Position numbers and translations under genes: made by a program
DNA from: Parvularcula sp. BBD 1991-13
GTDB lineage: Bacteria; Pseudomonadota; Alphaproteobacteria; Caulobacterales; Parvularculaceae
Assembly: GCA_001657385.1 (NCBI GenBank)
Contig: LYSZ01000003.1
Coordinates: 547,341-611,340, forward strand
Length of the DNA stretch: 64,000 nucleotides
Reading direction: 5' to 3'
Notes under the pieces: model-generated
What the model saw: the letters and a program-made list of their open reading frames with translations, nothing else
Told to the model about the DNA's origin: nothing
Databases searched by the model: none
Part shown: one piece after another, positions 1,571 to 23,257 of the stretch
Layout: each line of letters opens with the position of its first letter
How positions within the stretch are numbered: position 1 is the stretch's first letter

Positions 1571-2932
1571 ATGGCGGATGGGTTCAAGGCCGAATGGCCG
1601 ATGGATTTGAAAGCGCCCGAAGGCTCGCTCGAAGCAAAACAGCCGCGTCCGGACCTCGGCGCGGACGTCGTCGATCCCTCGCGGTATTATTCGCGCGCCT
1701 TCATGGAAAAGGAATGGGCGCAGCTGTGGCCGCGCGTCTGGCTCCTCGCCGGCGTGACGCCGGACATCAGGGAGCCCGGCGACTTCACCGTTTTCAAACA
1801 CGGCCACGAGGAGTTCATCATCGCGCGGCAGGACGACGGCGGGATCAGGGCGTTCTACAATGTCTGTCCGCACCGCGGCAATCGCGTGTGCCTGACCGAA
1901 CAAGGCAGCGTGCCGGCCTTCACCTGCCCGTTCCATAGCTGGCGCTTCAACTGCGACGGGTCGCTGGCGCAGATCACGGACGAGGAAACCTACGATCCCG
2001 AACTGATCAAGCACCGGCCCGGCCTGACCGAAGTGCGGTGCGATACGATCGGGGGACTGATCTTCATCAACATGGACGGCGCGGCGCCGCCGCTGAAGGA
2101 GTGGATCGGCCTGCCGGAAGGGTACATCGAGAACTACGAAATCGAGAAGATGAACGTCGTCCGGCATGTGCGCAGCGAGTGGAAAGCCAACTGGAAAACC
2201 GGCGTCGACGCATTTTACGAAACCTATCACCTGCCCCATATCCACCCGCAGACGCAGGGCGTCATGGAAGATTTCAGCCAGGTCGACCTTTACCCCAACG
2301 GCTTCAGCCGCATGATCGTGCCGATCGGCGTGAAGTCCCACAGGGTCAAGGATCAGGACAGCATCGATCCGTATCAGGCGCACATGATGATGGAGGCGGG
2401 CATCGACCCGCAGGCTTACAAGGGAACCCCCGCCGGCGTGCGCGCCGCCATCCAGGAGGCCAAACGCGAACGCGCGAAGAAGTTCAACCTCGACTATTAC
2501 GACAGGCTCACCGACGGACAGCTCACCGACAGCTGGGCCACCGGGTTCTTCCCCAACGTCCAGATCGGCATGCATCCTGAAGGCGTCTTCATCATGCGCT
2601 TCGTGCCGCACCCGACGGACCCGGAGCGTTTTTACTACGACAACATGACCATGTTCCGTTACGTGGACGACCCTGGCTATACCGTCCCCGGCTGGATGGG
2701 CCTGCCCGAAGGCATGGACGTCACCGGCGAAATCCGCCCGGAAATCGAACATGTCCCCGCCGACGTGAAGCCCGATCTCGGCGAGGTGCTCGATCAGGAC
2801 GTGGAGCTTGTCTACGCCGTGCAGGAAGGGGTGAAGTCGCGCGGCTTCGCCGGGCCGATCTGGTGCGAGCAAGAAGACCGCCTGCGGCACTTCCACCGCG
2901 AACTCGACCGCTATCTCAACGGCGAAAAGTAA
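1571..2932 (+). CDS. aromatic ring-hydroxylating oxygenase, alpha subunit (Rieske type)
   Basis: 453 residues, the usual size for a terminal oxygenase alpha subunit. The Rieske [2Fe-2S] ligands are C99, H101, C119 and H122 (CPHRGNRVC, then CPFHSW). The catalytic mononuclear iron site is visible as D213, H220 and H225 in DAFYETYHLPHIHP. Such enzymes insert O2 into aromatic or other hydrophobic substrates using electrons from a separate reductase and ferredoxin; none is encoded next to it, so it must borrow them. The start ATG follows AAAAGGGAGACAACC, a good ribosome-binding site. A palindrome at 1421-1448 lies about 120 bases upstream. The substrate is unknown. Confidence 0.9.
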   Translation: MADGFKAEWPMDLKAPEGSLEAKQPRPDLGADVVDPSRYYSRAFMEKEWAQLWPRVWLLAGVTPDIREPGDFTVFKHGHEEFIIARQDDGGIRAFYNVCPHRGNRVCLTEQGSVPAFTCPFHSWRFNCDGSLAQITDEETYDPELIKHRPGLTEVRCDTIGGLIFINMDGAAPPLKEWIGLPEGYIENYEIEKMNVVRHVRSEWKANWKTGVDAFYETYHLPHIHPQTQGVMEDFSQVDLYPNGFSRMIVPIGVKSHRVKDQDSIDPYQAHMMMEAGIDPQAYKGTPAGVRAAIQEAKRERAKKFNLDYYDRLTDGQLTDSWATGFFPNVQIGMHPEGVFIMRFVPHPTDPERFYYDNMTMFRYVDDPGYTVPGWMGLPEGMDVTGEIRPEIEHVPADVKPDLGEVLDQDVELVYAVQEGVKSRGFAGPIWCEQEDRLRHFHRELDRYLNGEK

Positions 2933-10102: not shown

Positions 10103-10627
10103 GGCTTCTCTCGCGGGAACGCGCGCCGGGCCTGCGCGAACCTCACCAGCGAACGCGAAGAGCCTAGCACCGCCTACGGAATGACTATCTCTCGTCTTGT
10201 CTCGCCGGCGGCGGCGGACAAGCGACAATCGCCGCGCCCCGGTGTTCCCTGCGTCAGTAGAAAGCGTCGGCGTCCGCGGCGCGGCGCAACATCTATATAA
10301 CTGGATTTCCTCTATCTTTCCGCACGCCGGTCGGGATAGTCGACAGTGAGCGAGCGCGGCGCCGGGCCTTCGCGGGCGTCGGTCTTGCCCGGTCTGTGAG
10401 GCCTTTTCCCGATCCTGCGCGCCTGAGCGCAAGGGCGTTGCAGCCCCCGCCGCGCGATCACGCAAGGCGCCGATCCGCCGCGATCGTCAGCTCAGGGAAA
10501 ACCGCGCCGGCGCACAGGCAAAATGTTATTAGAAACGCGCCGCCAAATCGGGCAAGGTCGACGTCGCCACGACAGGGCGGAAATTTGGACCGGCAGGAAT
10601 ACGCCCCGGCAGGAAAGGCGCGGCCCC
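10103..10627. other. 525-base gap, no gene recognised
   Basis: Between the XRE regulator and the antiporter. Both strands contain only shadow-like frames of GC-rich DNA. There is an AT-rich spot (CATCTATATAACTGG near 10290) that could hold a promoter, and a 16-base near-duplication (CCGGCAGGAATACGCC then CCGGCAGGAAAGGCG) just before the antiporter start. Nothing resembling an RNA gene was seen. Confidence 0.4.
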
Positions 10628-11851
10628 TTGATCACCGAACCCCTTATCGTCATCGCCCTGTGCATCGTTTTTTACGGCGCGTTCTCGGCGAAACTCGGAC
10701 GCTCGGTAGTTTCCGCGCCGATGACCTTCATGCTGGCCGGACTGGCCGCCGGCGAGGCGGGCCTCGGGCTCATCGAAGTCGCCATCGACAACGAGGTGCT
10801 GGAAGGTTTCGGCGAGCTGACCCTCGGCCTCATCCTGTTCGCGGACGCGGCCGCCACCAACAGCCGGCGTCTCGCCCATGATTACCGCATCCCGCGCCGG
10901 CTGTTGCTGGTCGGCCTGCCGCTGACGATCGCCTTCGGCGCGCTCATCGCCGTCGGCCTGTTCCCCAATCTCAACTGGCAGGAAGCGGCGCTGATCGCGG
11001 CGATCCTGGCGCCGACGGACGCCGCGCTCGGCTACGCCGTCGTCTCCTCGGAGCATGTGCCGGAGCGCATCCGCCAGAGCGTGCTCGTGGAATCGGGGCT
11101 GAATGACGGTCTCGCCCTGCCCGCGGTGCTGCTGTTCGCCGCGCTCGCCTACAGCGCGATGGAGGGCGAGCCGAGAAGCGCGCAGGACTGGGCCGTGTTC
11201 GCCGGACAGCAGATCGCGGTCGGCGCGGGGCTCGGCGTCCTCCTGGGCGCGGGGCTCGGCAAGCTCGTCCACCATGCGGACGGCAAGGGCTGGATCAGCG
11301 GGAGTTACCGCAACCTCACCTGCATCGGGGTAGCGATCCTGACCTTGTTCTGCGCCCACCTCGTCGGGGGCAACGGCTTTATCGCGACCTTTGTCGGAGG
11401 GCTGACATTCGGGGCGTTCTGTTCGAAACGCTCCGGCGCGCTGACCGGCTTTGTCGAGGAGGAAGGCCAGCTCTTCAGCCTCGTGATCTTTTTCTTTTTC
11501 GGCGCGGCGCTGTTGCCGGCGGCGCTTGCAAACTTCACGCCCTTCTGCGTTCTGTACGCGGTGCTGAGCCTGACGGTCATCCGCATGGCGCCGACGGCGC
11601 TGTCCCTTGTCGGGCTGAAGCTGAAGACCCCGACCAAGGCGTTTATCGGCTGGTTCGGCCCGCGCGGGCTCGCCTCGATCCTGTTCCTGCTGATCGCGGT
11701 CGAACATGACGAGATGGGCCGGCTGACGGAGGTCGAGGCGGTCGTCTACGTCACGGTGTTCCTGAGCGTGATCCTGCACGGAGCGACGGCGGCCCCCCTG
11801 TCGCGCCGCTACGGGCGGAGCGCAGCGGCCGCGGCGGACGGCGAAATCTAG
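10628..11851 (+). CDS. cation:proton antiporter (CPA family)
   Basis: About 407 residues with 11-13 predicted membrane spans. The diagnostic core is APTDAALGYAVVSSEHVPERIR followed by ESGLNDGLALPAVLLF, the ion-binding region of Na+/H+ antiporters (Asp in PTD and Asp in GLNDG). GPRGLASILF near the end is typical of the CPA1 branch. Expected to export Na+ or K+ for H+ at the inner membrane, fitting a marine lifestyle. The start chosen is TTG at 10628, giving LITEPLIVIALC as the first span behind AGGAAAGG; an ATG at 10523 would add 35 unlikely residues. Confidence 0.85.
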   Translation: MITEPLIVIALCIVFYGAFSAKLGRSVVSAPMTFMLAGLAAGEAGLGLIEVAIDNEVLEGFGELTLGLILFADAAATNSRRLAHDYRIPRRLLLVGLPLTIAFGALIAVGLFPNLNWQEAALIAAILAPTDAALGYAVVSSEHVPERIRQSVLVESGLNDGLALPAVLLFAALAYSAMEGEPRSAQDWAVFAGQQIAVGAGLGVLLGAGLGKLVHHADGKGWISGSYRNLTCIGVAILTLFCAHLVGGNGFIATFVGGLTFGAFCSKRSGALTGFVEEEGQLFSLVIFFFFGAALLPAALANFTPFCVLYAVLSLTVIRMAPTALSLVGLKLKTPTKAFIGWFGPRGLASILFLLIAVEHDEMGRLTEVEAVVYVTVFLSVILHGATAAPLSRRYGRSAAAAADGEI

Positions 11852-13254: not shown

Positions 13255-14094
13255 CTAAACCCGCCGGTAAGCGTCCGCGTCCGCCCGGAACTGGAGAAGA
13301 TCGCCGACGCGCACGATCTCGCCTTCAGCTTCCACCGGATCGGCGACGAGCGGCAGGATGTCCATCGGCATCGGTCCGCCGTTCGCGTCCGTCATCAGGA
13401 GCACGCTTTCGCGCCCGTCCCGCGTCCGCGCCCAGAAGCTCGGAGGTATCCCGCCGCGGATGCAAAGGCTCGCGCACGCCTTGTGCGTCTTGCCGCGGGC
13501 GGGCCGCATGACGCCGAAAAAGCACTTGGAATCCATGATCGCGCCGGAAAGGCGCCGCCGGCCGATGCGCTCGACCGCCGGCGCGGCGAGCGTTGCATCC
13601 GTCGGGGCGGCGGCGCTCGCCGGCGCGAGCCACTGCTCCAGGAGCGGCGGCACTTCGAGCATCCGGCGCTCCTTACGCTGAATGAGCACGCCCGAGGCGG
13701 TGACCGGCGTTCCCGCCGCGCCGGAGAACTCCAGCGCGGAGGTGCACTTGCCCGTCGCCACGACCAGCACCGTGCGCATGCCGAACGGCGCCGACGGATC
13801 GGCCATGCGGATCATGGGATACGGGGCCGTCGCGAGAACGCCCGTCACCTTGTGGGTCGCATTGGTGAGCCACGCGCCCGCGCCGGGGTCGTCAAGCTCG
13901 GCCGCGAGCAGCCAGCCCAGGCCCCCCGCGCCGAGAAGCCCGAGCGGCAGGGCGCCCAGCAGGAAGCGCCGGTCCGCCGCGGGGGCGTCGGCCCAGCCGA
14001 TGAACATCTCGCCCGCGTCGTCCCGGCTCGGATCGAGAACGCCCCCGGATCTGGCAACGGATCTGGCAATGGGCCTGGTCATGGATCTGCTCAT
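13255..14094 (-). CDS. membrane-anchored protein with a novel Cys/His motif
   Basis: 279 residues, not recognised. One membrane span lies at about 43-65 (FLLGALPLGLLGAGGLGWLL). A C-terminal block holds C191, H204, C207 and C211 in DSKCFFGVM, THKACASLC and IRGGIPPSFWAR, a spacing that suggests metal or haem ligation or redox-active cysteines. Its first 16 residues are a fourfold repeat (MSRS, MTRP, IARS, VARS) encoded by a 12-base tandem repeat. The ATG overlaps the stop of the ferric-reductase/Rieske gene by ATGA, so the two are translationally coupled and probably work together. Confidence 0.75.
   Translation of the reverse strand: MSRSMTRPIARSVARSGGVLDPSRDDAGEMFIGWADAPAADRRFLLGALPLGLLGAGGLGWLLAAELDDPGAGAWLTNATHKVTGVLATAPYPMIRMADPSAPFGMRTVLVVATGKCTSALEFSGAAGTPVTASGVLIQRKERRMLEVPPLLEQWLAPASAAAPTDATLAAPAVERIGRRRLSGAIMDSKCFFGVMRPARGKTHKACASLCIRGGIPPSFWARTRDGRESVLLMTDANGGPMPMDILPLVADPVEAEGEIVRVGDLLQFRADADAYRRV
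14047..14094. repeat. tandem repeat, period 12, four units, at the start of a gene
   Basis: Units GGATCTGGCAAC, GGATCTGGCAAT, GGGCCTGGTCAT and GGATCTGCTCAT. On the minus strand they encode MSRS-MTRP-IARS-VARS, the first 16 residues of the Cys/His-motif protein. Confidence 0.8.
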
Positions 14095-15167
14095 GACGCC
14101 GCCTCCGCCGCCAGGGCCGCCGCCGGAATGATCGCCGGCGCGGTTTTCGTTCCAGGCGCGTTCGGTTTCGGATCGATCAGCACCCGCCCTTCCTCGATGC
14201 GCACATTGTAGGTTGCGATTTTCTCGGTAAAGGGCGGCGGCGAAACGCCGTCATCGGGACGGTACTGCCACCCATGCCAGGGACAGGTGATGCAGCCGTC
14301 GACGACGCGCCCTTCGCCCAGCGGGCCGTTCTGGTGGCGGCAGGCGTTGGTGACCGCCGAGATCCTGTCGCCGTAGCGGAACACCGCCACCCGGTCGCCT
14401 TTCGGCAGGGGCGCAATGACGGCGCGCATGTCGGGAATGTCCGAGGGCGCGCAGACATCGATCCAGCCCTTCGCCTTCAGCCCTTTCATGCCGTTGTCCG
14501 CGCCCCACTCCCTCAGCCCCGCAACGATGTGCAGCCCCGACACGCCGATGAACGCGGCCGCGGTGACGACAGGATAAACCATTGACTTTTCCGTCATCAG
14601 CGCGCCCAGCACGATATGCAGCACAAGCAACGCATAGGCCGGATAGACCAGCATGTGCAGCGCCTTCCAGGCGGGGGCGGACAGATTGTTGAGCCAGAAA
14701 TCGTGGCTGGTCGCCGCCATCGCAAACAGGATGACGAACGCGCCGAGCCCCAGAACCTCGAACGGAAAGCCGGGGATCGAATCGTAAAGCGGATTGCTGA
14801 CAAAGATCGAGACCAGGGGATTGAGCGGCCCGCCGCCGTGATACCACAACAACGCAAGGCCGAAATGCGCGGCCGCGACGAAGAACGTCAATACGCCGAG
14901 ATGACGCCTGTTATAGAGCATCGGCCGGAACCGGGGACTGAACCGCGCCAGGGGACCGATGGTCAGCAGCCCCGTCAGCATGGCGAAGGACGCAACGCCC
15001 AGGGCGCGAATCATCAGCACGACAGGGTCCGCCGTGTGGCCGCTCGGATGCACCCGCAGGCCGACGGCGACGAAAACGCCGATGAACAGCGCGACGGCGG
15101 CGAGCACGTAAAGATCGTAGGCGACCTTGTTCCCGTTCCACTGAACGGCCCGGTACTGATGGCCCAT
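14091..15167 (-). CDS. ferric-reductase-like membrane domain fused to a Rieske domain
   Basis: 358 residues. Residues 15-220 form about six membrane helices with candidate haem-b histidines H89, H101, H171 and H184, as in YedZ/ferric reductase-like domains. Residues 235-340 are a Rieske domain with C276, H278, C295 and H298 (CRHQNGPLGEG, then CPWHGW). The fusion would pass electrons between a soluble [2Fe-2S] centre and membrane haem or quinone. It lies in a run of five minus-strand genes with ATGA or TAATG overlaps on both sides. Direction of electron flow and partner enzyme are inference; the neighbouring Rieske-enzyme fusions are the obvious candidates. Confidence 0.85.
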   Translation of the reverse strand: MGHQYRAVQWNGNKVAYDLYVLAAVALFIGVFVAVGLRVHPSGHTADPVVLMIRALGVASFAMLTGLLTIGPLARFSPRFRPMLYNRRHLGVLTFFVAAAHFGLALLWYHGGGPLNPLVSIFVSNPLYDSIPGFPFEVLGLGAFVILFAMAATSHDFWLNNLSAPAWKALHMLVYPAYALLVLHIVLGALMTEKSMVYPVVTAAAFIGVSGLHIVAGLREWGADNGMKGLKAKGWIDVCAPSDIPDMRAVIAPLPKGDRVAVFRYGDRISAVTNACRHQNGPLGEGRVVDGCITCPWHGWQYRPDDGVSPPPFTEKIATYNVRIEEGRVLIDPKPNAPGTKTAPAIIPAAALAAEAAS

Positions 15168-15343
15168 TATCGCTCCCCTTGCGATGCGGCTTCGGCGGCC
15201 TGGATAGCTTCAATCGCCGGCGGCAAATCGTCCGTGTAAGGCGTCGCCGGACGCTGGGTCCAGAACAGGAAACCGGCGGCCGCCGCGACGGGCGCAATGA
15301 TCAGCCAGGCGACGAGATGAATGCGCCGGTGCGGTCTTTTCAT
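15167..15343 (-). CDS. 58-residue single-span membrane protein
   Basis: Starts MKRPHRRIHLVAWLIIAPVA: a basic tip followed by one membrane helix (about 9-27) and a short acidic tail. Its ATG lies in an ATGA overlap with the upstream 104-residue gene, and its stop shares one base with the start of the ferric-reductase/Rieske gene (TAATG). This tight packing is the main evidence that it is real. Small one-span subunits commonly stabilise membrane redox complexes; that role is inferred. It is easily missed because of its length. Confidence 0.65.
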   Translation of the reverse strand: MKRPHRRIHLVAWLIIAPVAAAAGFLFWTQRPATPYTDDLPPAIEAIQAAEAASQGER

Positions 15344-15654
15344 CGTTCGGCGCTCCCGTTCGCGGACGTCTGTTCGCCAGCGCCGCCATCTCCGGGGCCG
15401 CCATTGCCGGACCCATTATTGCCGGGCCCTTCCGCCGGCCGGTTGATCTTTCGCCCGGACAGCCAGCGCCCCAGGACGTAAGGCCACAGCGCCGCACAGC
15501 CCGGAAACACGGCGAGGCGAAAGAAAAACCCGGACCCGGCGGCGGCCGCGTCCAGCCGCGGCGCGCCGAGGGCGAGAAAGGCGAGCGCCACGACCGCGCC
15601 GATCCCGAAATAGATCCCCGCGCCCAGGACGATGGTTTCCGCAAACTGCATCAT
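15340..15654 (-). CDS. 104-residue two-span membrane protein
   Basis: Two hydrophobic helices (about 6-30, IVLGAGIYFGIGAVVALAFLAL, and about 44-64, FFRLAVFPGCAALWPYVLG) followed by a Gly/Asn-rich tail carrying a degenerate five-residue repeat. No family recognised. It lies 24 bases downstream of the glutamate-synthase/Rieske gene and overlaps the 58-residue gene by ATGA, so it belongs to the same operon. Probably a small subunit or assembly factor of the same membrane complex; inference from context only. Confidence 0.7.
   Translation of the reverse strand: MMQFAETIVLGAGIYFGIGAVVALAFLALGAPRLDAAAAGSGFFFRLAVFPGCAALWPYVLGRWLSGRKINRPAEGPGNNGSGNGGPGDGGAGEQTSANGSAER
15382..15426. repeat. tandem repeat, period 15, three units
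   Basis: Units GCCGCCATCTCCGGG, GCCGCCATTGCCGGA and CCCATTATTGCCGGG. Encodes the GNNGS/GNGGP/GDGGA-type tail of the 104-residue membrane protein on the minus strand. Confidence 0.75.
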
Positions 15655-15678
15655 GCGCTCTCCTCCCGGCGGTCCGCC

Positions 15679-17304
15679 TTACCGCTCCGCCCAGCCGACG
15701 CCGCCATAGGCGACGCCCGAGAGCATGGCCATGTCTTCCTTGAACGTCGTCAGGTCGTCGACGGTGAAATCCGACAGGTGACAGCGCCCGCAGGCGCGCG
15801 CCAGCAGCTTCATCAGTTCGGTCGCCGTTTCAAAGAACGTCGCGAGGCGCCGGGCGGCGACGGCGATTTCAAGGCGCGCGCGCAAATTCTCCTTCTGCGT
15901 TGCAATCCCGACGGGACAGTTGTTCGTGTGACAGGCGCGCATGCCGAGGCACCCGATCGCCTGCATCGGCGCGTTGGACAGCGCCACCGCGTCCGCGCCG
16001 AGGGCCATCGCCTTGACATAGTCCGCCGGCTTGCGCAGGCCCCCGGTCGCGATCAGCGAGACGTTGCGCGCGCCGCATCGGTCAAGATGGCGCCGGGCGC
16101 GGGCGAGCGCCGGGATCGTCGGCACCGAGATGTTGTCGCGAAAGATCAGCGGCGCCGCGCCCGTGCCGCCGCCGCGGCCGTCAAGGATAATGTAGTCGAC
16201 GCCGACCTCAAGCGCGGCGTCGATGTCCTTCTCGACATGTTGCGCGGAAAGCTTGAACCCGACCGGGACGCCGCCCGTCCGCTCACGGACTTCCTCGGCG
16301 AAGTCCCTGAAACCGCTCGTGTCCTCCCATTCGGGAAAGCGCGAGGGGGAAATCGCGTCCTCGCCGGGGGCGAGCCCGCGCACCTCGGCGATTTCCTCAT
16401 CGATCTTTGCCCCCGGCAGGTGCCCGCCGGTGCCGGTCTTGGCGCCCTGGCCGCCCTTGAAATGGAACGCGGCCGCTTCGCGCACCTTGTCCCAGGAGAA
16501 CCCGAAACGGGCGGAGGCAAGCTCGTAGAAATAGCGGCTGTTGGCGCGCCGTTCGTCGTCCAGCGATCCGCCCTCGCCGGAGCAGATCCCCGTGCCCGCC
16601 ATCTCCGCGCCCCTGGCGAGGGCGATCTTCGCCTCGCGCGACAGGGCGCCGAAGCTCATGTCGGAGACGAACATCGGAATGTCGAGCCGCAAGGGCTTTC
16701 GCGCGCCGGGGCCGATGACAACATCCGTACCCACCGGTTCGTCATCGAGCAGGGGAACGCGGTGAAGCTGCGCCGTCAGCACCTGGATGTCGTCCCAGCT
16801 CGGCAATTCGTCCCGCGGCACGCCCATGGCCGCCACCACGCCGTGATGGCCGGTCTTGTCGAGACCGTCGCGCGCATAGCCCTGGATCAGTCCGACGAAA
16901 GGTTCCTCCGCTTCCGGATGGGTGTCGGCGTAAAGCCCCTGATACTCGTCGCGCTTGAACGGCTGCGGATGATCGCGCGCCCACGCCTCCACCTCCGCCT
17001 TGTCCACATAGACCGAGCCTTTCTCGATCTTGGCGCTGAATTTCCGCAGGGCTTCGCTGTTGTCGTATTCGCTGACGCCGGTGTCGTAGCGATAGTCCCA
17101 GTTGTGCAGCCCGCATATCAGATTGTGGCCGTCGATATGGCCGTCGGACAACAGCGCGCCCCGGTGAAGACAGCGCCCGTAAAGCACCGACACCTGGTCG
17201 TCGAAGCGCACGACCACCAGGTCGACATCCGCCACCAGCGCGTAGGCGGGCCGGCGATCCTCAAGATCCGCCCATTTCGCAACTTCGACCCAGTTCAGCG
17301 CCAT
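15679..17304 (-). CDS. Rieske domain fused to glutamate-synthase-type FMN domain
   Basis: 541 residues. Residues 1-100 are a Rieske domain (C45, H47, C64, H67 in CLHRGALLSDG and CGLHNWDY). Residues 150-520 match the FMN-binding central domain of glutamate synthase: GEGGSLDDE, KGGQGAKTGTGGHLPG and DGRGGGTGAAP. A 3Fe-4S motif follows at C452, C458 and C463 (CLGMRACHTNNCPVG). The N-terminal glutaminase domain of true GOGAT is absent, so ammonia channelling from glutamine is not expected. It is the first gene of a five-gene operon and is divergent from the Rieske/ThDP enzyme. The function is probably a flavin oxidoreductase using the Rieske centre as electron port; substrate unknown. Confidence 0.87.
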   Translation of the reverse strand: MALNWVEVAKWADLEDRRPAYALVADVDLVVVRFDDQVSVLYGRCLHRGALLSDGHIDGHNLICGLHNWDYRYDTGVSEYDNSEALRKFSAKIEKGSVYVDKAEVEAWARDHPQPFKRDEYQGLYADTHPEAEEPFVGLIQGYARDGLDKTGHHGVVAAMGVPRDELPSWDDIQVLTAQLHRVPLLDDEPVGTDVVIGPGARKPLRLDIPMFVSDMSFGALSREAKIALARGAEMAGTGICSGEGGSLDDERRANSRYFYELASARFGFSWDKVREAAAFHFKGGQGAKTGTGGHLPGAKIDEEIAEVRGLAPGEDAISPSRFPEWEDTSGFRDFAEEVRERTGGVPVGFKLSAQHVEKDIDAALEVGVDYIILDGRGGGTGAAPLIFRDNISVPTIPALARARRHLDRCGARNVSLIATGGLRKPADYVKAMALGADAVALSNAPMQAIGCLGMRACHTNNCPVGIATQKENLRARLEIAVAARRLATFFETATELMKLLARACGRCHLSDFTVDDLTTFKEDMAMLSGVAYGGVGWAER

Positions 17305-17403
17305 CAGCCATTTCTCCCCTAAACCACTCCGAAAGACGTCAAATTGTGATTTGCCTCATCCTATTGAGCGCGCGCACAATCGCAAAATCACGTTTTTCTA
17401 CGT

Positions 17404-17448
17404 GCAAGTGATTAGCAGGCAAGTGACTGGCGGGCGGGTAATCGGCGG
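17404..17448. repeat. tandem repeat, period 15, three units, in a divergent promoter region
   Basis: Units GCAAGTGATTAGCAG, GCAAGTGACTGGCGG and GCGGGTAATCGGCGG between the two Rieske-fusion genes. They could be repeated regulator sites, but the period matches the window-wide repeat class. Confidence 0.7.
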
Positions 17449-17505
17449 GCGATGCAATCGTTTTTTCACAAAATGTTCAAACGCAAGGCGGACGCCGGCG
17501 GAGCG

Positions 17506-17541
17506 CCGGGATCCGCGAAAAACCCCGGTTCCGCGAAAGGA
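17506..17541. repeat. tandem repeat, period 18, two diverged units
   Basis: Two 18-base units sharing CCGCGAAA, immediately before the start of the Rieske/ThDP gene. If the upstream ATG (17452) were used they would encode two GSAK-type repeats. Confidence 0.55.
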
Positions 17542-17550
17542 ACAACGGCA

Positions 17551-19554
17551 ATGAATCAGCACACAGCGGACCATGATAACGCCGGCGCGCTGGAATGGCA
17601 TCGGGTTGCGGATGCGGATCAATTGCCGGAAGGCCGGGTGACGACGGTTACGGCGGGGCGAAAAACCCTCGCCCTCGTCCACTTCGACGGGCGCTACGCC
17701 GCGATGGACAATCGCTGCCCGCACCAGGGCGGCCCGCTCGGCGAGGGCTCGATCGAAAAAGGCGTCGACGGCCAGTGCTGGCTTCGCTGCCCCTGGCATG
17801 GCTGGGACTTCGACCCGCTGACCGGCAAGCCGCCGGGCGGCCACGAGGATACGGGCCAGGAGATGTTTGCGGTGGAGATCCGCGCGGACGGGCTCTATGT
17901 CGGCGTGCCGCCCGAACCGCCCCATCAGCGCACCGCCACGGACGTCATCGCCGAAACCATGGTCAACTGGGGCCTCAAACGGGTCTTCGGCATGGTGGGA
18001 CACTCCAATCTCGGCCTCGCCGACGCCTTCCGCCTCCAGGAAGAGGCCGGCAATCTCTCCTATATCGGCATCCGTCACGAAGGCGCGGCCTCCTTCGCCT
18101 GTTCCGGCTACGCCAAGCTGACCGGCAAGCCAGCCGCGTGCCTGTCCATCGCCGGGCCGGGGGCGACCAACATGATGACGGGCCTGTGGGACGCCAAGGT
18201 CGACCGCGCGCCGGTGATCGCCTGCCCCGGCCAGGTGCAGGTGCAGGTGTTCTCCCCCTTCGCGTTTCAGGACATCGACCTCATGAGCGCTTTCGCGCCG
18301 GTGGGCGCGTTCAACCAGCTTGTTCTGCATGCGACCAATTACGCGGAGATCGCCTCCCTGGCGATGAAAACCGCGATCGTCGAACGCGACGTTTCGGTCC
18401 TGATCTTCCCCGACGACGCCCAGACCCTGCCCGCGCCGGAGATGAAAGCCGGCGCGCCAAACGGCCGCCTCGCCGCCCCGCGCATGACCGCGGCGGAAGA
18501 CGTCGTCGACGCGGCCCTCGACAGGATAAACGCCGCGCGCCGCCCCCTGATCATCGTCGGCTACGGCGCGCGCGAGGCGATGGACGCGGTCGTCGATCTG
18601 GCCGAGGACCTAAACTGTCCCGTGCTCACGACGTTCAAGGCGAAGGGGCAGATCCCCGACACGCACCCCCTCGCCGGGGGCGTCCTCGGCCGCTCGGGCA
18701 CGCCGGTCGCCTCTTGGTTCATGAACGAATGCGATCTTATCATCGCCATCGGCTCATCTTTTTCCCACCATACCGGGATCGAGCCGTCCAAGCCCATCGT
18801 CCAGATCGACATGGACCGGATGCATCTCGGCAAGGGCCATCCCGTCGCGCTGCCGGTCTGGGGCGAGATCGGCGAAACGCTGGCCCTGATGCGGCGCGTC
18901 AAGCGGGGACGCGGCGCCGGCGTCAATCAGCGCAAGGAAATCGCCGAGCGCTGGGCGATCTGGCGCGCGGAGAAGCAGGACCGCCTCGGCGACGACCGCG
19001 GGCGCGGGATCAGCGCCGCGGCGCTGTTCGAGGCGATGACAAGGGTTGTCCCGGCGGACGCGGTCATGCCCGTGGACGTGGGCAACAACACCTACTCTTT
19101 CGGCCGCTATTTCGAGCCCTGCGGCCAGCGCATCCTGATGTCCGGCTATCTCGGCTCCATCGGCTTCGGGTTTCCCGCCGCCATGGGCGCCTGGGCCGCG
19201 ACGCAGGACTTCAAGGAATATCGCGGCCGCAAGGTCGTCTCGGTTTCCGGCGACGGCGGCTTCGGTCAGTATGCGATGGAGTTCACCACTGCGGTTCACT
19301 ACGGCATGGACATCACCCATGTCCTGATGAACAACGCCGAACTCGGAAAAATTTCCAAGGAGCAGCGCGCCGGCGAATGGCCGGTCTGGCAGACCGCGCT
19401 CACCAATCCGGATTTCGCCGAGTTCGCGCGCTCCTGCGGCGGCATGGGCATGCGCGTGACGGACAAGGCGGATCTCGAACGCGCGCTGAAAGAAGCCATC
19501 GCCCATGACGGGCCGGCGCTGGTGGAGGTCGTCACCGACGCCGAACTCGTGTAA
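17551..19554 (+). CDS. Rieske domain fused to a ThDP-dependent (acetolactate-synthase-like) enzyme
   Basis: 667 residues from the ATG at 17551, which follows AAAGGAACAACGGCA; an upstream ATG at 17452 would add a repeat-rich leader and has no ribosome-binding site. The N-terminal Rieske domain has C56, H58, C80 and H83. From about 128 the protein is a full ThDP enzyme of the ALS/pyruvate oxidase type: the activating glutamate is E177 (IGIRHEGAASFACSGYA) and the cofactor motif is GDGGF at 567-571 with NN at 594-595. These enzymes cleave 2-oxo acids or related C-C bonds. A Rieske port suggests electrons from an oxidative decarboxylation are passed on. No sequence-based substrate call is possible. 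Confidence 0.88.
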   Translation: MNQHTADHDNAGALEWHRVADADQLPEGRVTTVTAGRKTLALVHFDGRYAAMDNRCPHQGGPLGEGSIEKGVDGQCWLRCPWHGWDFDPLTGKPPGGHEDTGQEMFAVEIRADGLYVGVPPEPPHQRTATDVIAETMVNWGLKRVFGMVGHSNLGLADAFRLQEEAGNLSYIGIRHEGAASFACSGYAKLTGKPAACLSIAGPGATNMMTGLWDAKVDRAPVIACPGQVQVQVFSPFAFQDIDLMSAFAPVGAFNQLVLHATNYAEIASLAMKTAIVERDVSVLIFPDDAQTLPAPEMKAGAPNGRLAAPRMTAAEDVVDAALDRINAARRPLIIVGYGAREAMDAVVDLAEDLNCPVLTTFKAKGQIPDTHPLAGGVLGRSGTPVASWFMNECDLIIAIGSSFSHHTGIEPSKPIVQIDMDRMHLGKGHPVALPVWGEIGETLALMRRVKRGRGAGVNQRKEIAERWAIWRAEKQDRLGDDRGRGISAAALFEAMTRVVPADAVMPVDVGNNTYSFGRYFEPCGQRILMSGYLGSIGFGFPAAMGAWAATQDFKEYRGRKVVSVSGDGGFGQYAMEFTTAVHYGMDITHVLMNNAELGKISKEQRAGEWPVWQTALTNPDFAEFARSCGGMGMRVTDKADLERALKEAIAHDGPALVEVVTDAELV

Positions 19555-19607
19555 GAGAATCCGGCGCGCCGGACGCGCGGACCTCGCTGCAAGGGACGGA
19601 TCGGATA

Positions 19608-20306
19608 ATGGGCGGAATCATCACAATCACCGTGAATACGGTCAGGATTAAACCAGTCGCCATGGCCATGATCTCTGCCGGCTTTTTCCTGTCTTCATGC
19701 CAGCAGGCCGGCGAGGACGCCGCCACGGCTCCTGAAACGCCGTCCCCGGAAGCCCCGCCTGAAGCGCCGTCTCCCGCTCAGCGCTCGCCGGCGCCGGAAG
19801 ACGTCGCCGCCGCCCGCGCCGCCGCCGTGGCGCTTCGCGACGCCCTCTTCGCCGCGCTGACGGACGCCATGACCGAGGGCGGGATCGAGCGCGCCGTCGC
19901 CGTGTGCAACGAGGCCGCGCCGGAGATCGCGGCCGGGCTTTCCGCCTCCCGCGACATGGAGATCGGCCGCACCGCCCTCCGCGTGCGCAATCCCGACAAC
20001 GCGCCCGACGCGTGGGAGCGCGCGCAGCTGGACGCCTTCGCGGTCCGCCACGAGACGGGCGAGGCGTTCGCCGGGATGGAGCACGCCGAAGTCGTGACGC
20101 AAGACGGAGCGGCGGTCTTTCGCTGGATGAAACCGATCCCCATGGGCGGTCTGTGCGCGGCCTGTCACGGAGAAAACATCGAGCCCGCAACCCTCGCCGC
20201 CATCAGGGCGCTTTACCCGGAGGACGAGGCGACGGGCTTCGCTCCCGGCGCCTTGCGCGGCGCCTTTACGGTGAAAAAGGCTCTGGGTACGCCGTCCTCC
20301 CTATGA
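19608..20306 (+). CDS. haem-binding DUF3365 (Tll0287-like) lipoprotein
   Basis: 232 residues. The N-terminal hydrophobic stretch ends in FFLSSC, a lipobox, followed by a Pro/Glu/Ala-rich linker (about 35-65). The rest matches the DUF3365/Tll0287-like fold, with VCNEAAPEIAAGLS and a single c-type haem site CAACH in the C-terminal half. Such proteins are periplasmic haem or redox sensors. It follows the Rieske/ThDP gene by 54 bases and overlaps the next gene by ATGA. In context it could be an electron acceptor or redox sensor for the Rieske cluster. Ribosome-binding site AAGGGACGG before 19608. Confidence 0.78.
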   Translation: MGGIITITVNTVRIKPVAMAMISAGFFLSSCQQAGEDAATAPETPSPEAPPEAPSPAQRSPAPEDVAAARAAAVALRDALFAALTDAMTEGGIERAVAVCNEAAPEIAAGLSASRDMEIGRTALRVRNPDNAPDAWERAQLDAFAVRHETGEAFAGMEHAEVVTQDGAAVFRWMKPIPMGGLCAACHGENIEPATLAAIRALYPEDEATGFAPGALRGAFTVKKALGTPSSL

Positions 20307-20755
20307 AACCGCTGATTCCGCCGCCGGTCATCGGCCTTCTTGTCGGTCTCGCCATGTGGATTCTGGCGCACAGCGCCGTCGGATTTTCAGTCCGTTTCGC
20401 CGGCCAGGGCTGGGCGGCCTCGGCCCTCGCCGGCGCGGGGCTCGCCATCGACCTTGTCTCCATCGGCGCATTCTTCCGGCGCAAGACGACCGTGAACCCG
20501 CTGACGCCGTCGAAAACCAACGCGCTTGTGGTCGAGGGGCTCTACCGGTTCAGCCGCAACCCGATGTATCTCGGCATGCTGATGATCCTGACGGGCTGGG
20601 GCGTGTGGCTCGGCAATCCCTTGAACCTCGTCTGCCTCGCGCTGTTCGTCTGGGTGCTCAACGAGGTGCAGATCAAGCCGGAGGAGCGGGCGCTGCGGGA
20701 AAAGTTCGGCGCTGATTACGACGCCTACTGCAAGCGCGTTCGGCGCTGGATTTAG
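20303..20755 (+). CDS. isoprenylcysteine carboxyl methyltransferase-like membrane protein
   Basis: 150 residues, four predicted membrane spans. The C-terminal signature GLYRFSRNPMYLGMLMILTGWG, later EVQIKPEERALREKFGADYDAYCKRVRRW, is typical of the ICMT/PEMT family of small membrane methyltransferases that bind S-adenosylmethionine. The natural substrate of bacterial members is mostly unknown. The ATG overlaps the stop of the DUF3365 gene (ATGA), so it is translationally coupled to it; a longer frame starting upstream is only a shadow. Confidence 0.85.
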   Translation: MKPLIPPPVIGLLVGLAMWILAHSAVGFSVRFAGQGWAASALAGAGLAIDLVSIGAFFRRKTTVNPLTPSKTNALVVEGLYRFSRNPMYLGMLMILTGWGVWLGNPLNLVCLALFVWVLNEVQIKPEERALREKFGADYDAYCKRVRRWI

Positions 20756-20766
20756 CGACGCCGGCA

Positions 20767-20875
20767 TTAGAGCGTGTTGCAGCAAGAGCGGATCGCCGGT
20801 TTTGCGGTTCGCGGGCGCGCTCCACTTGAGAATGCAGCGCCACTTGCGAATCGCGTTGACCGCAACCGGCTCTAA
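20767..20875. repeat. REP-like palindromic element
   Basis: A 109-base stretch bounded by TTAGAGC (20767-20773) and GCTCTAA (20869-20875), with further internal complementarity (GCGGTTCGCG against CGCGTTGACCGC). It fills the gap between convergent genes and its right end overlaps the feoB stop codon. This matches the layout of dispersed extragenic palindromes in alphaproteobacteria; other copies were not found in the window. Confidence 0.5.
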
Positions 20876-22698
20876 ACGAACGCCCTCGCGATATGGTAGG
20901 TCAGGCCCGCCGCTGCATAGGCGAGCCCGAACAGATAGGCGAAGGCGAACCCGGTCCAGCGCCAGGAGTTTGTCTCGCGGCGGATCGCGGCCAGCGTCGC
21001 GAAACACTGCGGCGCGAACACGTACCAGGCGAGGAACGCCAGCGCCGTCGGCAGGGTCCATGCCGATTGCAGGACCGCGGCGAGCCCCTCAACGTTGTCT
21101 TCCGCGTTCTGAACCGCATAGACGGTGCCGAGGGCGCTCACCGCCACTTCGCGCGCGGCCATGCCCGGCACCAGCGCGATCGCGATTTCCAGGTTGAAGC
21201 CGATCGGCGCGACAAGCGTTTCGATGACCGCGCCGATGCGCCCGGCGAAGGTCTCGCGCAAGCTCGTCGCCGAGTCCGGATAGCTCGCCAGGAACCACAG
21301 AGCGATCGAGGTCGCGAGAATGATCGTCCCGGCGCGCTTCAGAAAGGCCGAGGCGCGCATCCACAGGCCGATGGCGAAATCGCGCGGATCGGGCGCCTTG
21401 TAAGTGGGCAGCTCCATCAGCAGCGGCTGCGGCGCTCCTTGCGTCACCGTGCGCTTCAGGACATAGGCGACCGTCACGGCGCTGACGATCCCGGCGACGT
21501 AAAGCCCGAACATGACGAGCCCCTGGAGGTTGAACGGCCCGGCCGCCTCGCGCGGGATGAAGGCGGCGATGATCAGCGTATAGACCGGCAGGCGCGCCGA
21601 ACAGGTCATCAGGGGCGCGATGAGGATCGTGGTCAGCCGGTCGCGCTCGCTCTCGATCACCCGCGCGGCCATGATGCCCGGAATGGCGCAGGCGAAACTC
21701 GACAGCAGAGGAATGAACGCGCGGCCGTTCAGCCCCACCCGCATCATCAACTCGTCCATCAGGAACGCCGCCCGCGCCATGTAGCCCGACGCCTCCAGCA
21801 CAAGAATGAAAGCGAACAGGATCAGGATCTGCGGCAGGAAAATGACGACGCTGCCGACCCCGGCGATCACCCCGTCGACCATGAGATCCTGCGCCCACCC
21901 GGCGGGCATGGCGGCGCGCGCCGCCTCGCCCAGCGCCACCGCGCCCGCGTCGATGGCGTCCATCGGCCCGGTCGCCCAGGAAAACACCGCCTGGAACATG
22001 AAGAACAGGATCGCCGCGAGGACCAGCGGGCCGGCCAGCGGATGCAGCACCACCTTGTCGATTTCCTGCGTCGCGCGGTTCATCATCGACTCCGCGACGA
22101 TCGCCTCGTTCGCAATGGCGCGCGCCTCGCGCTGGAGATCCTTCAGGTCCGCGTCCGCGAATGCCGGCGGCGCCGCGGCGGCTTTTCCGCCCAGCGCCGC
22201 GTCGAGACGCTCGATCAGCCCCGCCCGTCCCGCCTTGCGGGTGGCGCGGGTCGGCGCGACGGGAACGCCGAGGCGCGCCTCAAGCCGGGCAACGTCGATT
22301 TCCATCCCGTCGCGCTCGGCGAGATCGATCATGTTCAGGGCAAGGATCATCGGCCGGCCGAGGGCGCGAAGCTGTAAAACCGAGTGCAGATGGGTGCGCA
22401 GATTGGCCGCGTCGATCAGCACCAGCAGCATGTCGGGCGGACTGATCCCGGCGGCCTTGCCGGTGATCGCGTCCACCGCCACGCGTTCGTCCATGGAGCG
22501 CGGGCTGAAGCCGTAAAATCCCGGCAGGTCGATCAGCTCCACCTCGCGGCCGGCGGGCGTGCGAAAGCGCCCGGACCGGGTCTCCACCGTGGCGCCGGGA
22601 TAATTGGCGACCTTGGCGCGCCCGCCGGTCAGGCCGTTGAACAGGGTCGACTTTCCGCAATTGGGCGCGCCCACCAGCGCAAGACGCAACGCAGTCAC
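20872..22698 (-). CDS. feoB: ferrous iron transporter, GTPase permease
   Basis: 608 residues. The N-terminal G domain shows GAPNCGKST (10-18), the switch region NYPGATVE and DLPGFYGF (G3, 57-64), with NMID as G4. The rest is the two-Gate membrane domain that moves Fe2+ across the inner membrane. At 608 residues it is on the short side for FeoB but has all core blocks. The start is GTG at 22698, directly after the feoA stop, so expression depends on feoA translation. A Fur-box-like site lies upstream of feoA. Confidence 0.95.
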   Translation of the reverse strand: MTALRLALVGAPNCGKSTLFNGLTGGRAKVANYPGATVETRSGRFRTPAGREVELIDLPGFYGFSPRSMDERVAVDAITGKAAGISPPDMLLVLIDAANLRTHLHSVLQLRALGRPMILALNMIDLAERDGMEIDVARLEARLGVPVAPTRATRKAGRAGLIERLDAALGGKAAAAPPAFADADLKDLQREARAIANEAIVAESMMNRATQEIDKVVLHPLAGPLVLAAILFFMFQAVFSWATGPMDAIDAGAVALGEAARAAMPAGWAQDLMVDGVIAGVGSVVIFLPQILILFAFILVLEASGYMARAAFLMDELMMRVGLNGRAFIPLLSSFACAIPGIMAARVIESERDRLTTILIAPLMTCSARLPVYTLIIAAFIPREAAGPFNLQGLVMFGLYVAGIVSAVTVAYVLKRTVTQGAPQPLLMELPTYKAPDPRDFAIGLWMRASAFLKRAGTIILATSIALWFLASYPDSATSLRETFAGRIGAVIETLVAPIGFNLEIAIALVPGMAAREVAVSALGTVYAVQNAEDNVEGLAAVLQSAWTLPTALAFLAWYVFAPQCFATLAAIRRETNSWRWTGFAFAYLFGLAYAAAGLTYHIARAFV

Positions 22699-22947
22699 CT
22701 AATTCGTCTCCATCGCCGCGCGCGGCTCCACCGAGATGGCGGCGGCCTCGTCGGCGCGCAGGGCGATCAGCGTACGGTTCAGGCGGACGCACAGGGGTTT
22801 GCGGTTCAGCGGACCCACGTGAACGATTTCGACCTCGTCGCCTTCCGCGAAGCCGACCTCGCGCAGCTTCTGCTCCAGCGTCGGGTCCGCCGCGGCGAGC
22901 CCGCGGACCCGGGCGGCCTTCCCCATGCCGAGATCGCTCAGTCGCAT
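22699..22947 (-). CDS. feoA: ferrous iron transport protein A
   Basis: 82 residues, SH3-like FeoA: MRLSDLGMGKAARVRGL, then LREVGFAEGDEVEIVHVGPLNRKP. FeoA is a cytoplasmic partner that modulates FeoB. The ATG at 22947 was taken because the family begins at MxLSDL; the frame is open further upstream but that part is not protein-like. Immediately followed by feoB. Confidence 0.93.
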   Translation of the reverse strand: MRLSDLGMGKAARVRGLAAADPTLEQKLREVGFAEGDEVEIVHVGPLNRKPLCVRLNRTLIALRADEAAAISVEPRAAMETN

Positions 22948-23257
22948 CGATCGCCTTTCCCAGATGATGGTTCCGGCGGCGTCTTGCTGCGCCGGACTAT
23001 CCTTCTGATTCGTAGCCCGTTTTGGCCTGTCGCCGCGGAGGCCGGAGGCGGTCCGCTGCGTCGTCCATCTAAGAATGAGTTTCAATAACGGATTTTCCCC
23101 GCGGACGCAAAGCCCTCCATGCATTAGGGCCGAAAACGGCCGCTCGCGGGGAAAACACGCGCTGTGGCCTGCGCGCCAGTCGGGTTTATGATAGAGCCGG
23201 TTGAAAGACCTCGCCGCCGCAGGACGGCGCAAAACCGACGACGGGAGACGCCGCCTT
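22948..23257. other. divergent promoter region, feoAB versus cutA
   Basis: About 310 bases with no gene. It must carry the feoAB promoter leftwards and the cutA promoter rightwards. The only site I can point to is a Fur-box-like sequence at 23071-23089. Confidence 0.4.
23071..23089 (-). promoter_or_regulatory. Fur-box-like site upstream of feoAB
   Basis: On the minus strand the 19 bases GTTATTGAAACTCATTCTT match the classical Fur consensus (GATAATGATAATCATTATC) at 13 of 19 positions. It is about 125 bases upstream of feoA. Plausible for iron-regulated feoAB, but alphaproteobacterial Fur, RirA and Irr sites vary, so this is a tentative call. Confidence 0.35.

Follow-up and report, generated by a model that had tools for sequence, protein, structure and literature searches.

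Why should three unrelated enzyme scaffolds, encoded almost side by side, each carry a Rieske domain? The question is raised by a gene cluster in a stretch of 64,000 nucleotides from Parvularcula sp. BBD 1991-13 (contig LYSZ01000003.1, positions 547,341 to 611,340; this whole stretch is referred to as the window), in which a ferric-reductase-type membrane protein (FRD_R), a glutamate-synthase-type flavin mononucleotide (FMN) protein (GltS_R) and a thiamine diphosphate (ThDP) enzyme (ThDP_R) are all fused to such a domain. A preliminary description of this DNA had proposed that the ThDP and FMN enzymes deliver electrons through Rieske centres to the membrane haem protein. We favor a related explanation, to which we give a little less than an even chance: the cluster would be a module of recombining genes that passes electrons to the membrane independently of NAD(P)H. 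The three genes are:

14091..15167, minus strand: FRD_R, six-helix ferric-reductase-type membrane protein with a C-terminal Rieske domain (PF01794, PF00355)
15679..17304, minus strand: GltS_R, N-terminal Rieske domain and glutamate-synthase FMN domain (PF00355, PF01645)
17452..19554 (alternative start 17551), plus strand: ThDP_R, N-terminal Rieske domain and pyruvate-oxidase-like ThDP enzyme (PF00355, PF02776/PF00205/PF02775)

The presence of a Rieske domain in all three scaffolds was borne out by PF00355 matches of 54.1 (FRD_R), 48.8 (GltS_R) and 64.7 bits (ThDP_R) at a cut-off of 20.3, and the ligands had been placed correctly at C276/H278/C295/H298 of FRD_R, C45/H47/C64/H67 of GltS_R and C56/H58/C80/H83 of ThDP_R (counted from the ATG at 17551). 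Alignments of 55 FRD_R, 51 GltS_R and 101 ThDP_R rows were built from fetched loci, a few genomes being represented twice. All four ligands were invariant in FRD_R (55/55) and ThDP_R (101/101), while in GltS_R the last two were found in 51/51 rows and the first two in 50/51, one row being cut off before them. Judged by their ligands, the domains are thus unlikely to be the cluster-free remnants that had been named as a possible objection. Rieske domains of the ferredoxin type lack the disulfide cysteines of bc1-type domains. A second cysteine in the ligand loops was seen in 0/101 ThDP_R, 0/51 GltS_R and 0/55 FRD_R rows and, since the CxH...CxxH ligands are also intact, all three domains are classified by sequence as ferredoxin type, not bc1 type. 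In a tree of 34 Rieske domains those of GltS_R stood apart from those of FRD_R and ThDP_R; given long branches and unsettled bootstrap values, this tree carries little weight.

FRD_R matched PF01794 with 48.7 bits (cut-off 28), and its Rieske domain spans residues 235-320. The structure model combines a STEAP/NOX membrane fold with a Rieske ferredoxin fold, the latter in the place that the NADPH (flavin adenine dinucleotide (FAD)/NADPH) domain occupies in NOX; the C-terminal FAD- and NADPH-binding domains of NOX and long ferric reductases were found neither by Pfam nor in the model. Together with topology prediction, the model supports the earlier assignment as a ferric-reductase-type membrane protein, with the Rieske domain on the predicted cytosolic side. 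R87, H89, H101, H155, H171 and H184 were present in 55/55 rows and H213 in 54. According to the accessible part of PMC3591440, in the YedZ/STEAP signature an arginine replaces the first haem histidine and further histidines lie in the third and fifth transmembrane (TM) helices. R87/H101/H171/H184 fit this signature in spacing, by which they were placed, rather than by residue-level structural alignment. A two-haem, NOX-like ligation was therefore considered for FRD_R and dropped, and the protein may have one haem or more.

GltS_R matched PF01645 with 302 bits, and its 3Fe-4S cysteines C452/C458/C463 were conserved in 51/51 rows, as were E244, K289 and R309, which have functional roles in glutamate synthase. 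In ThDP_R all three ThDP-enzyme domains (PF02776/PF00205/PF02775) accompany the Rieske domain. With residue 1 at 17536, the ligands C61/H63/C85/H88 and E182, F244, Q245, D573, G574, K605 and E609 were found in 101/101 rows, so that the catalytic glutamate, the Phe-Gln pair and the GDG motif are kept. The best solved relative was Escherichia coli PoxB (E 1.4e-86), followed by acetolactate synthases. The protein may start at 17452 rather than at 17551; a basic amphipathic stretch can open the frame in the window and in several close relatives, but not in others.

The second line of evidence is the company that these genes keep. The preliminary description had listed two small membrane proteins, a Cys/His protein, a CAACH lipoprotein and an ICMT-like protein, all of which are present in the window (the last as an ICMT/PEMT-like protein); it did not mention an antiporter gene that recurs beside the cluster. 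The neighbors that recur are:

10523..11851, plus strand: NhaP-type Na+/H+ antiporter (PF00999, 133.6 bits), a recurrent, optional member
13255..14094, minus strand: CysHis, one predicted N-terminal TM helix and a Cys/His motif (conserved residues)
15167..15343, minus strand: sm58, small protein of 58 residues with a single predicted TM helix
15340..15654, minus strand: sm104, 104 residues with two predicted TM helices

Of the overlaps described for the minus-strand genes, those of four bases (ATGA, 14091-14094 and 15340-15343) and of one base (TAATG, 15167) are real, whereas sm104 and GltS_R are separated by a gap of 24 bases.

A profile search of genome contigs with the ThDP_R alignment gave at least 574 relatives, and the best 80 were kept for neighborhood counts within 10 kb of ThDP_R; many of these contigs are short, so that the counts are lower bounds. 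GltS_R was found in 50 of the 80 loci, FRD_R and CysHis, always together, in 39, sm104 in 37, NhaP (in the fetched flanks) in 22 and sm58 in 8. Among 20 stretches from near relatives (L024-L043), NhaP and sm58 were matched in 11 and 13, and nine stretches held all seven genes; the others were cut by contig ends or lacked some parts, and one (L040) had ThDP_R alone. Gene order varied. In Marinicaulis and Henriciella it is CysHis-FRD_R-sm58-sm104-GltS_R, divergent from ThDP_R, in several roseobacters GltS_R-sm104-FRD_R-CysHis-(small TM protein)-ThDP_R, and in Roseibium/Labrenzia NhaP-GltS_R-ThDP_R-sm104-FRD_R-CysHis. The genes are thus conserved together across genera and classes, as had been asked of the preliminary proposal, and since the linkage survives rearrangement it speaks, at the level of sequence, for a function shared by FRD_R, GltS_R, ThDP_R and their neighbors.

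Co-occurrence was also seen genome-wide. In a class sample of 230 genomes, window genome included, ThDP_R was present in 11, FRD_R in 13, the Rieske-fused GltS_R in 7 and all three in 6; the seventh GltS_R genome is 67% complete. Fisher tests gave p-values of 3.6e-6 (ThDP_R/FRD_R), 1.6e-8 (ThDP_R/GltS_R) and 6.1e-8 (FRD_R/GltS_R), and of 3.1e-3, 1.1e-4 and 2.4e-4 after removal of the window genome and of one genome per same-genus pair. In 4/6 three-gene genomes, from two genera, the genes are at least 17 kb apart or on separate contigs, which shows that the co-occurrence does not only reflect close linkage. Forty genomes covering 40 of the 80 ThDP_R loci were also sampled (many of them metagenome-assembled, at least two shared with the class sample): GltS_R was found in 30, FRD_R in 23, all three in 20 and FRD_R without GltS_R in 3. 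Protein distances were also correlated (Mantel r 0.63-0.92), but vertical descent would produce such values too, and they are not counted here in favor of an interaction.

At 60% identity or more, ThDP_R was found in 16/27 other genomes of the genus, 2/8 of the family and 1/24 of the order. None of the next matches in these genomes exceeded 33% identity or began before residue 96, and all of them lie past the Rieske ligands. ThDP_R is also encoded on four haloarchaeal plasmids (58-61% identity), two of which carry GltS_R as well (61%), and on an actinobacterial plasmid (53%).

Taken together, the invariant active-site and cluster residues, the local and genome-wide association and the predicted fold of FRD_R support an electron chain of the following kind. 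In the cytosol, ThDP_R would obtain an electron pair by oxidative decarboxylation of a pyruvate-like 2-oxo acid, and GltS_R another by FMN/3Fe-4S oxidation of a glutamate-like amino acid or imine. Each enzyme would pass its electrons singly to its own, low-potential Rieske domain and from there to the Rieske domain of FRD_R, which the model places where NOX has its FAD/NADPH domain. The haem or haems of FRD_R would then carry them across the membrane, and the acceptor would be a quinone, O2, a metal or an oxidised target in the periplasm; CysHis and the small TM proteins may be further subunits. Both the direction of flow and the contacts between the Rieske domains are inferred. As a chain from the ThDP and FMN enzymes to a membrane haem, the original proposal is the best reading of the locus; against an obligate chain speaks that FRD_R on the one hand and ThDP_R with GltS_R on the other also occur apart. 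Where FRD_R is missing, the two enzymes would need another acceptor.

Several observations weigh against such a chain. Ten of the 40 ThDP_R genomes have GltS_R without FRD_R and 7/40 have neither, while 7 of the 13 FRD_R-bearing class genomes lack ThDP_R. In one of these seven genomes, G275, the Rieske proteins are FRD_R and one protein with a frame of 195 residues, with no others seen, and in Rhizobium plasmids the FRD_R operon stands beside a ThDP enzyme without a Rieske domain. The association is in large part one within Alphaproteobacteria, so that shared ancestry may account for some of it, and electrons could flow in the reverse direction.

Some of these points fit separate, co-regulated enzymes, an explanation that survives best among the alternatives and that we nevertheless regard as unlikely. 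ThDP_R and GltS_R would then work with general ferredoxins or reductases, FRD_R-CysHis-sm104 would be a reductase of its own, and all would be controlled together in a single stress regulon that also includes the antiporter and, in some loci, a pair of ECF sigma and anti-sigma factors. Operons of FRD_R, CysHis and sm104 indeed exist without ThDP_R, as do the seven ThDP_R genomes without either partner; genes for ECF sigma factors and zf-HC2 anti-sigma factors each occur in 10 of 91 clustered loci, and merA, arsenic-resistance or peroxiredoxin genes lie near 2/4 haloarchaeal loci. However, this explanation leaves aside that all three genes carry a Rieske fusion and that 6/7 GltS_R genomes of the class sample have all three, and no stress family was prominent among 137 flanking open reading frames, where the largest counts were 6.

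Reverse flow is distinctly unlikely in our view. FRD_R would draw on the quinol pool or the periplasm, its Rieske domain would feed GltS_R for reductive synthesis such as a reductive amination, in the role that ferredoxin has for ferredoxin-dependent glutamate synthase, and ThDP_R would be non-oxidative. The nearest solved relatives of GltS_R include this synthase, a reductively working enzyme, and the 3Fe-4S ligands are kept; in contrast, Pfam did not find the glutamine amidotransferase domain in GltS_R, and the best solved relative of ThDP_R is an oxidase. Within the FRD family, moreover, FRE and NOX proteins move electrons outward (accessible part of PMC3591440). Quite improbable is a catabolic path for one nutrient, from amino acid to 2-oxo acid by GltS_R, through oxidative decarboxylation by ThDP_R to respiration by FRD_R: the two enzyme types would act on consecutive kinds of compound, and a Rieske-less ThDP enzyme, OpgC and TPR genes lie near the FRD_R operon in three Rhizobium plasmids and two other genomes, with a CoA-transferase in the plasmids and in L136, yet uptake or pathway genes were not recognised among the recurrent neighbors of the three-enzyme cluster.

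A module that brings electrons to the membrane independently of NAD(P)H thus remains the favored reading, and a wider form of it is conceivable, which we advance tentatively and with more doubt. In this general Rieske wiring, exchangeable cytosolic dehydrogenases of unrelated folds (ThDP, GltS-type FMN, FMN reductase) would each have gained a Rieske plug and would dock by it on a Rieske-capped, NOX-like transmembrane haem protein. Electrons from 2-oxo acids and from amino acids could then cross the membrane with no need for NAD(P)H, complex I or lipoate-dependent dehydrogenases, and cells might use this route in emergencies, when oxidants or metals put them under stress. A fourth scaffold with a Rieske domain, a Rieske + FMN-reductase fusion, comes after FRD_R in genome G273 (L132:5204-7381), which also speaks for the favored module.

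Among the neighbors, CysHis (279 residues) had no Pfam or NCBIfam match. D188, C191, M196, P198, H204, C207 and C211 were found in 55/55 rows and K190 in 53/55. One N-terminal TM helix and a beta-rich two-part domain are predicted, the model gave no convincing fold match, and the predicted location is extracytoplasmic. The C-terminal domain recurs in small proteins of seven class genomes, with an N-terminus that looks signal-like by eye, and in three of the seven stretches SCO1/SenC copper chaperone genes are nearby (L149:7104-7526, L151:7428-7898, L152:7552-8070), which hints at a periplasmic role related to metals or thiols. The position of sm58 is taken by a gene for 53 residues in three Rhizobium plasmids.

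As to the membership proposed earlier, CysHis and the small membrane proteins recur, whereas the CAACH lipoprotein (75.7 bits with PF11845, Tll0287-like) and the ICMT-like gene were dropped together with a DAO gene, as neither the 80 ThDP_R loci nor 25 further loci (20 from near relatives) gave a match to any of them. Further recurrent neighbors in the 91 clustered loci were a DUF5996-like protein (17, a weak match below cut-off), a small TM protein (14) and DUF1622 (8).

Between the divergent GltS_R and ThDP_R genes, alignment of same-genus loci revealed one more feature:

17342..17392, no strand assigned: conserved intergenic element, an imperfect inverted repeat

It includes TTGTGATTTGC at 17344-17354. 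Its left half, TGATTTGC, was invariant in the window and 11 aligned same-genus loci, the right half was kept in part, and the element was not seen in L043, from another genus. A pattern typed from it had one exact match in the genome, and the element is apparently dedicated to this locus.

Other observations concern the surroundings. The window genome (4.24 Mb, 36 contigs) has nine Rieske matches, seven of them on contig 4 at 523,969-565,169, including the three described here; the other four are found upstream of the cluster, at a distance of up to about 40 kb (523969-549324, one at window 1739-1984) in frames of 206, 415, 469 and 458 residues, three being sized like subunits of ring-hydroxylating oxygenases. 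FeoB-/FeoA-like iron transport genes were recognised by eye beyond the cluster (20872-23232, minus strand). Close to the FRD_R operon in L193-L195, L136 and L137, genes for OpgC, TPR and acetolactate-synthase-like ThDP proteins appear to form a second partner set, of which L086 shows only ThDP and OpgC, and in one Rhizobium plasmid genes annotated as sigma-70-family, DUF1109 and chlorite-dismutase-family lie close to the operon (L194:9906-11656). A homologue of the Rieske + FMN-reductase fusion (70%) follows a formate dehydrogenase gene on a Methylocystis plasmid, and in the protein of about 540 residues encoded at L191:1450-3087 Pfam matched nothing besides an N-terminal Rieske domain.

No description of the three-enzyme cluster was found among the papers listed by searches of full-text literature, which mostly leaves out subscription papers, nor in the accessible parts of PMC3174974, PMC5859297, PMC8097209, PMC3591440, PMC5676040 and PMC8238504. 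Single parts are already in print there, namely FRD + Rieske, drawn as architecture M4 in PMC3591440, and CDGSH + GltS. If true, the favored reading would mean that ferric-reductase/NOX-type membrane proteins can be fed in a way other than by NAD(P)H/flavin domains or quinols, and that pyruvate dehydrogenase has a Rieske-linked alternative; it also gives a testable function to conserved proteins labelled only 'Rieske', 'thiamine pyrophosphate-binding', 'glutamate synthase-related' or 'hypothetical' in public records.

Compared with known systems, FRD_R shares PF01794 and the STEAP/NOX membrane fold with MsrQ/YedZ, STEAP and NOX, but carries a Rieske domain where NOX and long ferric reductases have FAD/NADPH domains. 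It differs from MsrQ in its NCBIfam score (NF003831, 42.9 bits at a cut-off of 130), and no MsrP partner was recognised by eye among 20 recurrent neighbor clusters, no search having been aimed at MsrP. ThDP_R resembles PoxB in its three ThDP domains, Glu, Phe-Gln and GDG, and differs in the fused Rieske domain, in the invariant lysine K605, which is Phe in PoxB, and in scoring 367.6 bits, half of the cut-off of 742, with the pyruvate oxidase equivalog NF006377. With ferredoxin- and NADPH-dependent glutamate synthases GltS_R has in common the FMN domain and three 3Fe-4S cysteines, whereas it has no detected amidotransferase domain and its electron carrier is fused in cis. Similar to this arrangement are fusions of tandem CDGSH motifs to a glutamate-synthase FMN domain, the known type 5 CISD class (accessible part of PMC3174974), which have the same kind of FMN domain behind an N-terminal [2Fe-2S] carrier; in GltS_R a Rieske domain takes the place of the two CDGSH motifs (no CDGSH match in Pfam), and the gene stands in a redox cluster. 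Three class genomes carry a Rieske-less GltS close to GltS_R in sequence, its FMN domain 69-70% identical to that of GltS_R of Labrenzia, and the two of them that were inspected (L153, L155) have two N-terminal CDGSH motifs. Since two unrelated [2Fe-2S] carriers occupy the same place, the sequences suggest that this GltS-type FMN enzyme needs a one-electron partner.

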